Both the position numbers and the translations under genes were made by a program. Source: Chloroflexota bacterium (GTDB lineage Bacteria > Chloroflexota > Limnocylindria > Limnocylindrales > CSP1-4). Taken from it: 64,000 bases of DNA. The notes under the pieces are model-generated. The model searched no databases, was not told the origin of the DNA, and saw only the letters and a program-made list of their open reading frames with translations. The stretch spans positions 1 to 64,000 of the forward strand of contig JAJYJO010000003.1 of the NCBI GenBank assembly GCA_021789435.1. The letters run 5' to 3'. Positions 1 to 4,526 of the stretch are shown here, piece after piece (position 1 is the first letter of the stretch; each line of letters begins with the position of its first letter).

Positions 1-213
1 GGCGATGCGCTGGACGGCCTCGAAGTCGCCCGGCGAGGCGGCCGGGAAGCCGGCCTCGATGACGTCGACCCGGAGGCGAGCGAGCTGGCGGGCGACCTCC
101 AGCTTCTCGGCCGCGGTCAGCCCGGCGCCGGGCGCCTGCTCGCCGTCGCGGAGGGTGGTGTCGAAGATGCGGACCGTGCCCGGCACGATCGCCGGGCCGC
201 CTGGCCCGCTCAC
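1..213 (-). CDS. leuA: 2-isopropylmalate synthase, N-terminal part (runs off window edge)
   Basis: Reverse translation [60 protein letters not shown]; typical Leu[10 protein letters not shown] motif; GTGA overlap with ilvC stop. Confidence 0.9.
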
Positions 214-1277
214 CGTCCGGCCTCCGACGCGGCCGGCGGCGTCCGCTCGGCGGCGGCCTGGGCCTCGCCGGCCCGGACCACCACGGGGTTGAGGAAGGCC
301 ATCTGGGCTCGCAGGGCGGCGCCGACCTGCTCGATCTGGTGGTCACGGTCGGCCGCCCGGAGCCGCTCGAACTCGGGCCGGCCCGCCTCGTTCTCGGCGA
401 CCCAGCGGCGGGCGAAGCTGCCGTCGCGGATCTCCCGAAGGACCTGGCGCATCGTCGCCCGAACGTGGTCGTCGACGATCCGCGGCCCGGAGACGTAATC
501 GCCGTACTCGGCCGTGTCGGAGACGCTGAAGCGCATGAAGTTGAGACCGCCGCGGTACATCAGGTCGACGATCAGCTTCAGCTCGTGCATCGTCTCGAAG
601 TAGGCCAGCTCGGGCTGGTAGCCGGCCTCGACGAGCGTCTCGAAGCCCATCTTGACCAGGTTGCTGACGCCGCCGCAGAGGACCGCCTGCTCGCCGAAGA
701 GATCGGACTCCGTCTCCTCGGCGAAGGTCGTCTCGAGCGCGCCGGCCCGGGTGGAGCCGAGCGCCCGGGCGTAGGCCAGGACCCGTCCCCGGGCCGTCCC
801 GGAGCTGTCGCGGTGGACCGCAAACAGCGCGGGCACCCCCCCGCCCGCCTGGAAGACCGTGCGGACCAAGTGGCCCGGGCTCTTCGGCGCGACCATCCCC
901 ACGTCCACGCCGCCCGGCGGGTCGATCAGGCCGAAGTGGATGTTGAAGCCATGGGCGAACATCAGCAGCTGGCCCGACCGAAGGTTCGGTCCGATCTCGG
1001 CGTCGTAGACGGCCTTCTGGGCCGTGTCCGGGACGGCGACCATCATCACGTCGGCGGCGTGGACCGCATCGGCGACGTCCATCACCGCCAGGCCGGCCTC
1101 GCTCGCCAGCGCCCGGCTCCTACTCGTCGCCGGCAGGCCCACCACGACGCCGACGCCCGATTCCGCCAGGTTGAGGGCGTGGGCGTGGCCCTGGCTGCCG
1201 TAGCCGATGATGGCGACCGTCTGGCCGGCCAGGGCGGCCGGATCGGCGTCGCGGTCGTAATACATCCGGGCGGTCAT
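210..1277 (-). CDS. ilvC: ketol-acid reductoisomerase
   Basis: 355 aa; [14 protein letters not shown] Rossmann motif, [19 protein letters not shown]. Confidence 0.95.
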
Positions 1278-1903
1278 CGCTTCACGGCCTCCTCGATGGA
1301 ACCGGCCCCGCGGGACATGACCACGGCGCCGGTGCGCACCAGTTCCTTGATCCCGAAGCCTCGCAGGAGGGCGACCAGCGCGTCCACCTCGGCCTCGGTG
1401 CCGGTCGCCTCCACGATGAGGCTGTCGGCCGCCAGGTCCACGACCCGACCCTTGTACATCTCCACGATGCTGACCACCTCCGGCCGGGTCCGCTCGGAGA
1501 TGCGCACCTTGATCAGCGCCAGCTCATGCTCGACGGTCGGATCCGCCGTGACGTCCTGGACCTTGAGGACGTCGATGAGCCGGTAGAGCTGCTTGGCGGC
1601 CTGCTCGACGGCCACGTCGTCGCCGTGGACGACCAGCGTCATCCGGCTCATCTCGGCGCGGTCGGTGTGGCTGACGGCCAGCGACTCGATGTTGAAGTTG
1701 CGGGCCCGCATCAGGCTGGCCACACGGTTCAGGACGCCCGGCCGGTCGCGGACGACGGCGACCAGGACGTGGCGGTGGGGAACCCCCGAGCCGGGCACCG
1801 CCCGGTCCGGGGGCGTGGCGTGGGCCGGCGTTGCGTGGGCCGGCGTTGCGTGGGCCGGCGTTGCGTGGGCCGGCGTTGCGTGGGCCAAAGCGTCGGGGCT
1901 CAT
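1274..1903 (-). CDS. ilvN: acetolactate synthase small (regulatory) subunit with N-terminal ATPAH repeat
   Basis: ACT domain [33 protein letters not shown]; start ATG at 1903 overlaps ilvB stop (ATGA). Confidence 0.9.
1818..1886. repeat. 15-bp tandem repeat (gcgtgggccggcgtt), about 4.6 copies, inside ilvN
   Basis: Four identical consecutive copies 1818-1877 plus partial copy; encodes (ATPAH)n. Confidence 0.95.
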
Positions 1904-3867
1904 TCGTCCGCCCCCTGCCACTCCTCGAGCAGGTCGGAGAGGCCCTTGCCGGCCGGCATCATCGGGAAGACGTTCTGCTCCTCGGCGATCATGAAGTGGA
2001 CGAGGGCCGGCCCGGGGACCGCCCTGGCGGCCGCGATCGCTCCGTCCACCTCGTCCGGCGTGCTGGCTTCGAAGGCCGGGATGCCGTAGGCCTCGGCCAG
2101 CTTCCGCCAGTCGGGCCCCTGGAGGTGCGCCGAGTGGTAGTTGCCGGCGTAGATCAGCTCCTGCCACTGCCGGATCATGCCGAGCTTGTGGTTGTCCAGG
2201 AGGGCGATCTTGACCGGGATCCGGTCCTGCACCAGGGTCATCAGCTCCTGGACCGTCATCTGCAGCCCGCCGTCGCCGGCGATCGCCCAGGTCTCCTTGT
2301 CGGGCCGGCCGAGGGCGGCCCCCATGGCCGCCGGCAGGGCGAAGCCCATCGTGCCGAGGCCGCCGGAGCTGACGTGGCTGTTCGGGCGGCGGAAGCCCGC
2401 GTAGCGCGCCATCCACATCTGGTTCTGGCCCACGTCGGAGACGAGCGTCGCGTCGTGGCCGGTCGCCTCGCCGATCCGCTGGATCACGAAGTCCGCCGAC
2501 AGCAGGCCGTCCCGCCAGGCGCCGGAGCCGTGCCAGCTCGATGCTTCGGACTCGCGGCGCCAGGCGGCCAGCTCGGCCAGGTACGGGCCGCGTGCCTCGG
2601 CAGCCACCGCCTCGACGAGCGGCAACAGGCCCCGCAGGACGCGGCGGACGTCGCCGACGATCGGCACTTCGACGGCCACGTTCTTGCCGATCTCGGCCGG
2701 GTCGATGTCGACGTGGACGATCCGGGCGTAGGGCGCGTAGGTCCGGACGCTGCCGGTCACCCGGTCGTCGAAGCGCATCCCGAGGGCGACCAGCAGGTCG
2801 GCCGACTGGATGGCCCGGTTCACGTGCTTCCAGCCGTGCATGCCCATGTAGCCGAGGCTCAGCGGGTGGTCCTCCGGGAAGGCTCCGATGCCGAGCAGCG
2901 TGTGGGCGACCGGGATGGAGGCCTTCTCGGCCAGGGCACGCAGCTCGTCCCAGGCCCGGGCGACAAGGACGCCGTGGCCGGCCAGGATGACCGGCCGCGC
3001 GGCGCGCGCGATCTCGACGGCGGCCAGCTTCAGCTGGCGGGGATGACCGTCGAGGTTGGGGCGGAAGCCGGGCAGGCCGGCCACCACGTCCGCCTCGTCC
3101 GGGTGCGGCGCGCTCGTCTCCTGCTGCAGGGCGTCCTTGGTGATGTCCACGTGGACCGGGCCGGGGCGGCCGGTCCGCGCGATGTGGAACGCCTCGGCCA
3201 GAACCCGGGGCAGTTCGTCCGCGTTGCGGACCAGGTAGTTGTGCTTGGTCATCGGCAGGGTGATACCGGTGATGTCGATCTCCTGGAAGGCGTCCTTGCC
3301 GATCAGGGCGGCGGCCACGTTGCCCGTGATCGCGACCATCGGGACGGAGTCGAGCATGGCCGTGCCGATGCCGGTCACCAGGTTGGTGGCCCCGGGGCCG
3401 CTCGTGCCAAGGCAGACCCCCACCTTGCCGGTGGCACGGGCGTAGCCGTCCGCCGCGTGAGCCGCCCCCTGCTCGTGGCGGACCAGGACGTGGCGAATCT
3501 CGGGGTAGTCGGCCAGCACGTCGTAGAGCGGCAGGATCACGCCGCCGGGGTAGCCGAAGAGGACGTCCGCGCCCTGCCGGACGAGGGCCTCACAGACGAC
3601 GTCCGCGCCGATCCGGGTCCGCTTCCGCGGGCCGCGATCGTGGTGCGGGGCGAGGATGTCGACAGGGGATGCGCCGCGCTGCCTGCGCCCCGCATCCCGG
3701 ACCGCGTCCTGCAGCATCTCGCGCCGCGCGCGCTCCTCCACCGCGGCCCGCTCGGTGCCGTCCCCGGGAAGGTGGCTGCGGCGCTGCCGAGGGGCCGGCG
3801 CGGGCGGACGCGCGGACGCGGCGGTGCGGGTCGTCCCGCGGCTCGGTTGGTTGCTCGTCGTGGCCAT
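1900..3867 (-). CDS. ilvB: acetolactate synthase large subunit
   Basis: ThDP enzyme motifs (FGYPGGVILPLYDVL, GDGGLQMTVQEL); ATG at 3867 (MATTSNQ) preceded by GAGGGG, chosen over upstream in-frame starts that lie in or before the terminator. Confidence 0.9.
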   Translation of the reverse strand: MATTSNQPSRGTTRTAASARPPAPAPRQRRSHLPGDGTERAAVEERARREMLQDAVRDAGRRQRGASPVDILAPHHDRGPRKRTRIGADVVCEALVRQGADVLFGYPGGVILPLYDVLADYPEIRHVLVRHEQGAAHAADGYARATGKVGVCLGTSGPGATNLVTGIGTAMLDSVPMVAITGNVAAALIGKDAFQEIDITGITLPMTKHNYLVRNADELPRVLAEAFHIARTGRPGPVHVDITKDALQQETSAPHPDEADVVAGLPGFRPNLDGHPRQLKLAAVEIARAARPVILAGHGVLVARAWDELRALAEKASIPVAHTLLGIGAFPEDHPLSLGYMGMHGWKHVNRAIQSADLLVALGMRFDDRVTGSVRTYAPYARIVHVDIDPAEIGKNVAVEVPIVGDVRRVLRGLLPLVEAVAAEARGPYLAELAAWRRESEASSWHGSGAWRDGLLSADFVIQRIGEATGHDATLVSDVGQNQMWMARYAGFRRPNSHVSSGGLGTMGFALPAAMGAALGRPDKETWAIAGDGGLQMTVQELMTLVQDRIPVKIALLDNHKLGMIRQWQELIYAGNYHSAHLQGPDWRKLAEAYGIPAFEASTPDEVDGAIAAARAVPGPALVHFMIAEEQNVFPMMPAGKGLSDLLEEWQGADE

Positions 3868-3973: not shown

Positions 3974-4002
3974 AAAAAACCCTCGCCGTTCCCGGCGAGG
4001 GT
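3974..4002 (-). terminator. intrinsic terminator/attenuator upstream of ilvB
   Basis: On - strand: ACCCTCGCCG-GGAA-CGGCGAGGGT followed by TTTTT; 10-bp perfect stem. Confidence 0.85.
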
Positions 4003-4027
4003 CCTGTCCGTCCTGGTGGTCTTCGCG

Positions 4028-4258
4028 CTACCTGCGCTCGTCCCTCCGCGTCCGTCCAGCCTCCCGCCGGGAGCCGGTAATGAGCCCGACAAGGCTCACG
4101 AGGCCAAGCTCGAGGAAGCGGAGTAGAGCGAGGAACGAGTTGTCGACCAGGCCGGCGTCTTCCAGCGGCACCTGCACGCGGCGGCCGTCCGTCCTGATCA
4201 GGACGGCGACGTGGCGGCGATCACGGCCGTGGAACAGGCCCAACCTGGCCTCCTGCAT
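4028..4258 (-). CDS. candidate ilv leader peptide (76 aa maximal ORF; real start may be internal)
   Basis: C-terminal FLALLRFLELGLVSLVGLITG rich in Leu/Val/Ile with rare CTA/CTT/ATT codons, directly before the terminator. Confidence 0.55.
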   Translation of the reverse strand: MQEARLGLFHGRDRRHVAVLIRTDGRRVQVPLEDAGLVDNSFLALLRFLELGLVSLVGLITGSRREAGRTRRDERR

Positions 4259-4526
4259 GCACCGTGGCGTGGACGCCTTGGTGTCCGGGCAGTCTAGCAG
4301 GCCCCGTCAATCTCGTCCTGAGAGGGCCCGGCCGCGGTCGCCGGGCGGCCGGGCAGGCGGGTTGACGGGCCGCCGGGCAGGCGCCCCTTCGGCGCCCCGG
4401 GGAGAACCGCTCCGCGCGAGGGCCCCTCAAGGCGGCTTGAGTCGCGGACTCCAGGGGCCTTTCGGACCATGGGAACGGGCCTTTCCTCCCTTCCGTCCGG
4501 GCCGCCGTGACGGCTCACTTCGTCCT

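Follow-up and report, generated by a model that had tools for sequence, protein, structure and literature searches.

A long leader peptide and candidate ribosome-mediated attenuator ahead of the ilvBNC-leuA operon in a family of Limnocylindrales (Chloroflexota)

It is proposed that the minus-strand region ahead of ilvB in a Chloroflexota contig (JAJYJO010000003.1, of which positions 1 to 64,000, the whole stretch analysed, are called the window) is very likely a ribosome-mediated transcription attenuator that senses leucine, valine and isoleucine supply and controls ilvBNC-leuA. A leader peptide and a terminator would thereby, very probably, switch on the branched-chain amino acid (BCAA) genes in starvation, and the window's element is judged from its sequence to be a lineage-specific long variant of the BCAA attenuator. 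A -10 element, AGGAGG, the leader ORF, a 25-nt spacer, a 10-bp terminator and ilvB follow one another on this strand. The initial annotation had suggested a leader-peptide attenuator before ilvBNC-leuA, and the Leu/Val/Ile run, terminator and antiterminator pairing conserved in relatives support that suggestion.

The leader precedes a BCAA biosynthesis operon in which ilvB, ilvN and ilvC are assigned by family match and leuA by sequence, all on the minus strand: ilvB (1900..3867; acetolactate synthase large subunit, TIGR00118, 708 bits, with ATG 3867 read from the sequence), ilvN (1274..1801, start approximate; acetolactate synthase small subunit, PRK11895, 196 bits), ilvC (210..1277; ketol-acid reductoisomerase, PRK05479, 519 bits) and the 5' end of leuA (1..213), which is cut by the window edge. 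The last is presumably leuA on the strength of an isopropylmalate synthase motif; a search of its 68 residues for family matches found none. IlvB itself carries about 80 residues ahead of its TPP-enzyme domain (3867-3610, minus strand), and a similar H(L/V)PGxGT...ML stretch is seen in the IlvB extensions of relatives and of a sister family.

The ORF at 4258..4028 on the minus strand is present as annotated, and for its unexpected length two explanations had been offered, a start inside the ORF and an unusual design, each of which partly holds. The true start is probably TTG 4243, five codons 3' of ATG 4258, which makes the leader 71 rather than 76 aa. This start is preferred because the Shine-Dalgarno sequence AGGAGG (4249..4254, minus strand) lies 5 nt before it and most relatives have an NTG-GG(T/C) start at the matching place, whereas ATG 4258 has no Shine-Dalgarno sequence, is unconserved in relatives and was rejected. 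The design is unusually long because of an N-terminal extension and a C-terminal read-through, set against leaders of 24-39 aa in sister families. The leader ORF accordingly spans 4028..4243 (minus strand, stop TAG at 4030-4028) and encodes MGLFHGRDRRHVAVLIRTDGRRVQVPLEDAGLVDNSFLALLRFLELGLVSLVGLITGSRREAGRTRRDERR; its start and frame are kept across 62 distinct leaders, most of which show a Shine-Dalgarno sequence and an NTG start, and its omega is well below 1 in frame 0 only. Leader lengths across the family range from 59 to 76 aa. The extended -10 promoter element TGC-TAGACT also lies where it had been placed (4291..4299, minus strand); as read by eye, most relatives have a TAGACT/TACACT-like element at the matching position, often with TTGCGC or TTGACG 16-18 nt 5' of it.

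A profile search matched the leader ORF in 82 of the 177 genomes of the class, all of them within the window's own family, one Limnocylindrales family of 107 genomes. Removal of three non-leader matches (G063, G023 and G110) leaves an ilvB leader in 79 of the 107, a conservation on which the leader ORF is judged not to be a chance reading frame, and the remaining families of the class, as well as a sample of 301 genomes of the phylum from outside the window's family, gave no instance of the ORF. Wherever a fetched contig extends far enough, ilvB comes after the leader; a DNA pattern scan returned 41 loci, each of which has the leader, with ilvB following in all but L074, whose contig stops short of that gene. 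The family genomes that have ilvB without a leader include contigs that break just 5' of ilvB (e.g. L101 and L104). The RNA and codon comparisons described below use the 62 distinct aligned leaders, all before ilvB. Relatives' contigs are labelled as Chloroflexi and Candidatus Limnocylindrales metagenome bins; L075 and L097 are labelled Deltaproteobacteria and Myxococcales, labels that are doubted because their ilvB is 78-79% identical to that of the window, and both are taken as mislabelled or mis-binned. One genome (G062; C12, C34; L102, L116) holds two complete leader-ilvB loci of differing sequence, which could reflect either a genuine duplication or mixing within the bin. Weak second peptide-profile matches (G063, G065, G034; E about 3e-4) fell within other coding regions or were short and partial, and a search of the same genome for another copy of the RNA element gave terminator-like fragments only.

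The Leu/Val/Ile control block covers residues 34-55 (4079..4144, minus strand), is about 50% Leu, Ile and Val and ends CTC-ATT. Against a background of ilvB from 61 loci plus five window genes, the block codons of the 62 leaders are enriched 13- to 130-fold over ilvB usage (observed versus expected: CTT 215 vs 16, ATT 92 vs 3.4, GTA 78 vs 0.6), counts that come from related sequences rather than independent events, the contrast inside one ORF being very large; an earlier background with unverified frames gave the same direction with smaller ratios. The N-terminal codons of the leader show no rare-codon enrichment. CTT or CTA is found in 61 of the 62 leaders and GTA in 56, and ATT is the last Ile codon, closing the block, in 59. 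The window's leader lacks GTA and has the CTA, CTT, CTT and ATT that had been pointed out as rare in this genome, a remark borne out by the five window genes, where CTA makes up 0%, CTT 2.8% and ATT 1.9%. ATT and the common ATC should share one tRNA, so the choice of ATT is not fully explained. According to selective-charging theory, the codons used in attenuators are those read with the greatest sensitivity to supply, which need not be the rarest (PMC1183508).

The intrinsic terminator (3974..4002, minus strand) has a 10-bp stem, a GGAA loop and a T-run to 3974, with the hairpin ACCCTCGCCG-GGAA-CGGCGAGGGT at 4002..3979 and an energy of -21.2 kcal/mol. It begins 25 nt after the leader stop, ahead of ilvB, much as the initial annotation had it (about 26 nt), and is present in 62 of 62 leaders, 21-38 nt past the stop, where 99.3% of cells are paired and 19 double-change cells fall at three pairs. 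A simple terminator scan of the window returned none and so missed this one.

Directly after the last Leu-Ile codons of the block, the codons Gly-Ser-Arg-Arg-Glu form the hairpin P2, CUCCC-GGC-GGGAG (4061..4073, minus strand), with 95% of cells paired over the 62 leaders. Its bases also make up the 5' arm of an antiterminator, UCCCGGCGGG (4063..4072, minus strand), which pairs with the 3' arm CUCGCCGGGA (3990..3999, minus strand), itself overlapping the 5' arm and loop of the terminator; the antiterminator thus uses bases of P2 and of the terminator and excludes both. Its pairing is kept in 91% of cells, and the window's duplex is put at -24.4 kcal/mol. Covariation of the antiterminator within the family is modest: a double change (U-A for C-G) occurs at one pair in three sequences, which, judged by their arms, are L019, L020 and L021 and perhaps represent two independent events, a number of double-change cells that 16 of 500 shuffles reach, while the percentage paired is no better than in shuffled alignments and duplexes formed by a leader's own arms gain little over swapped ones (-20.3 vs -20.0). 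Strong covariation is absent here because the arms vary too little. Synonymous divergence is 0.13 across GLITGSRRE versus 0.43 in the N-terminal part, so that synonymous sites at P2 are three times as constrained as those of the N-terminal extension, as would be expected under RNA selection there. The Leu/Val/Ile run, the terminator and an alternative antiterminator pairing, for which the initial annotation had proposed looking in related genomes, are all conserved. A larger 1:2 stem proposed by RNAalifold, from the BCAA block to the GGAGG tail, is not claimed, since its pairs are poorly kept (53-94% per pair in the outer part).

In folding calculations where the ribosome masks 12 nt from its A site onward, and with the RNA ending at the terminator loop, a ribosome at ATT or upstream of it gives the antiterminator a mean probability of 0.99-1.0, above 0.5 in 62 of 62 leaders. 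Once the full terminator is transcribed, the terminator mostly wins at equilibrium, and control would therefore have to be kinetic. Kinetic control is also believed to operate in known attenuators.

From the ORF with its rare-codon block, the P2 and terminator hairpins and the pairing that excludes both, all seen in the aligned leaders, we infer stalling, coupling, termination and a starvation response in the following manner. RNA polymerase would start just upstream, and a ribosome would translate the 71-codon leader close behind it. With plentiful BCAA-tRNAs, the ribosome would move through the Leu/Val/Ile block and P2 and past the stop; P2 would refold behind it, and the ribosome would also have held P2 off the terminator arm, so that the terminator would form before ilvB. 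With scarce BCAA-tRNAs, the ribosome would stall in the block; the Gly-Ser-Arg-Arg codons in P2 would then be available to the 5' arm of the terminator once that is transcribed, and their pairing would give readthrough into ilvB.

Residues 9-26 (RRHVAVLIRTDGRRVQVP; 4166..4219, minus strand) form a conserved N-terminal extension that is absent from sister-family leaders, and this extension of about 26 residues is under purifying selection, with an omega of 0.30 in frame 0, not in shifted frames, versus 1.2 for the linker that follows; linker and tail (omega 0.72) both evolve nearly freely as protein. The extension also contains a possible RNA hairpin, GCCGUC...GACGGC (4184..4207, minus strand), with 96% of cells paired and A-U in place of G-C at one pair in 16 sequences, a number that relatedness may inflate. 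AlphaFold, in a 70-residue model of modest confidence, places a beta-hairpin at residues 10-15 and 21-26 and a helix at 35-56, with a mean pLDDT of 64 and a pTM of 0.27. Searches with the extension and leader in Pfam, NCBIfam and PDB gave no sequence match, and a Foldseek fold search gave nothing meaningful (best E 2.0). In two genomes, both first found by a profile lacking them and included in a later profile, the extension occurs away from ilvB: in a 52-aa ORF near an acetyltransferase and a luciferase-like gene (G110, L171), and in a 69-aa ORF that has an ilvB-type -10 and Shine-Dalgarno sequence, without an evident terminator, before a prephenate dehydratase gene (G023, L172). Such persistence suggests a function apart from attenuation.

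On these grounds the ORF could be read as encoding mainly a small functional protein belonging to the ilv operon (beta-hairpin, hydrophobic helix and basic tail), the terminator being incidental or only lowering ilvB. Selection on residues 9-26 in frame 0 only, the predicted fold (at a mean pLDDT of about 64) and the N-terminal part that persists in G110 and G023 all agree with this reading, but it leaves the rare block codons, the near-invariant synonymous sites of P2 and the terminator pairing unexplained, and a linker and tail that are nearly free of constraint do not fit it, so that we regard it as improbable. A bifunctional leader is possible, and we advance it tentatively: the first 26 or so residues would make up a microprotein or a nascent-chain module that is selected for a function of its own and that may have been fused in this family to an ancestral short ilvB leader and kept in two genomes without the attenuator part. 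Any role for the module, for instance in trans or in tuning the ribosome stall as the peptide leaves the exit tunnel, is speculation; for an attenuator peptide acting in trans there is the precedent of Sinorhizobium peTrpL (PMC7298713), and the parallel with the window goes as far as precedent.

Shorter leaders stand before ilvB in two other families. A sister family with streamlined genomes of about 1 Mb has leaders of 37-39 aa (e.g. MTNSALLLTPVLGGLLVLFAALIGGISNLLGLLIQPRRG, then stop) with CTTATT, a GCCCCGGCGGGGC hairpin and a matching terminator, and a third family has a leader of about 24 aa (e.g. MSRVSLLPGLVLVLLERTRHPLGG, then stop) in which the pairing partner of AGCCUCUC in the terminator is GGGAGGCU at the stop. 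When a covariance model is built from the window's family alone, the elements of the sister family score E about 1e-7 to 1e-10, and those of the third family are weak matches. Their stop lies at segment 2 in a textbook-like manner, whereas in the window's family the frame continues past segment 2, for 10 more codons in the window, and the long leader resembles a short one lengthened at both ends. That the short, BCAA-rich leaders (24-39 aa) follow the same logic, with analogous pairings, argues for the attenuator reading of the long one. Plain constitutive or polarity control, by an upstream terminator and an unrelated ORF without amino-acid sensing, is very improbable: a terminator by itself would lower ilvB expression, but such control would not account for rare BCAA codons in 61 of 62 leaders, for the conserved mutually exclusive pairing or for the way in which the sister families repeat this logic with other sequences.

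The third family (f3) also has a second BCAA leader with a terminator (e.g. MRRVSLPIVIAELLLTRSGRTLGGGS, then stop) about 1 kb upstream of the ilvB leader, at L108:373-478(+), L140:4255-4359(-), L141:342-447(+) and L143:4176-4285(-). Since the product of the gene after this second leader ends in a helix-turn-helix-like region (HRNTVRQRLRKIAEITGADL), a likely regulator gene and ilvB would carry tandem attenuators in f3.

At the gathering score, Rfam gave no match over the leader, and no ilvB, T-box or riboswitch family model fits. T-boxes control some amino-acid genes. A metabolite-binding riboswitch or T-box is nonetheless the least probable reading and a most unlikely one, given the lack of an Rfam match at gathering in the window and the frame evidence that the region is translated, although ppGpp riboswitches control certain ilvB genes in other settings (PMC10272879). 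An Rfam search at E up to 10 gave only sub-threshold matches, among them one to RsmY (27 of 57 bits) that was rejected. In several relatives, c-di-GMP-I riboswitches share the strand of the ilvB leader and lie some 325-440 nt upstream of it: L009:1109-1184(+), L079:3789-3869(+), L076:4991-5077(-), L093:1534-1613(+), L002:2151-2237(-) and L085:1314-1391(+). Those in L009 and L079 precede short hydrophobic ORFs (e.g. MKGNLVRLTWALMLLASLALSVGAGMRW, then stop), and L079 has a GGDEF/EAL-like gene further upstream.

The attenuator proposed here shares its control codons and its mutually exclusive antiterminator and terminator with the classical enterobacterial ilv, leu and trp attenuators, whose leaders are much shorter than the window's. 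In trp the ribosome at the stop masks segment 2. The window departs from this trp-type layout, as its stop lies about 30 nt past segment 2 and a terminating ribosome would therefore not cover P2. The ilvB-II motif, or Corynebacterium ilvBNC leader, likewise has a Leu/Val/Ile-rich uORF before ilvBNC, a terminator and an antiterminator pairing with the ORF region, but its uORF is usually 15-17 codons (10-24 in all) versus 59-76 here (PMC10272879, PMC11857589), and it has no reported conserved N-terminal extension. The ilvB-OMG and ilvB motifs also have a BCAA-rich uORF before ilvB and probably act by attenuation, but belong to other lineages with another consensus (PMC10272879), and the window's element lacks an Rfam match to any of these. 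Candidate ilvB leaders of Actinobacteria resemble it in their Ile/Val/Leu-run ORFs and terminators before ilvB, but those ORFs are short and their codon runs overlap the candidate terminators (PMC1262725), whereas here the stop precedes the terminator by 21-38 nt. Within the limits of one library, a literature search returned no report of a BCAA attenuator in Limnocylindrales or other Chloroflexota. The general principle is known, but the leader is unusually long and carries an additional conserved part at its front.

The strong choice of the rarest synonymous codons, ATT included, bears on why attenuators use rare codons. The three families form a graded series, from about 24 aa through 39 aa to 59-76 aa with an added conserved module, which allows tests of how the leaders of attenuators lengthen and of whether their peptides take on functions in their own right.
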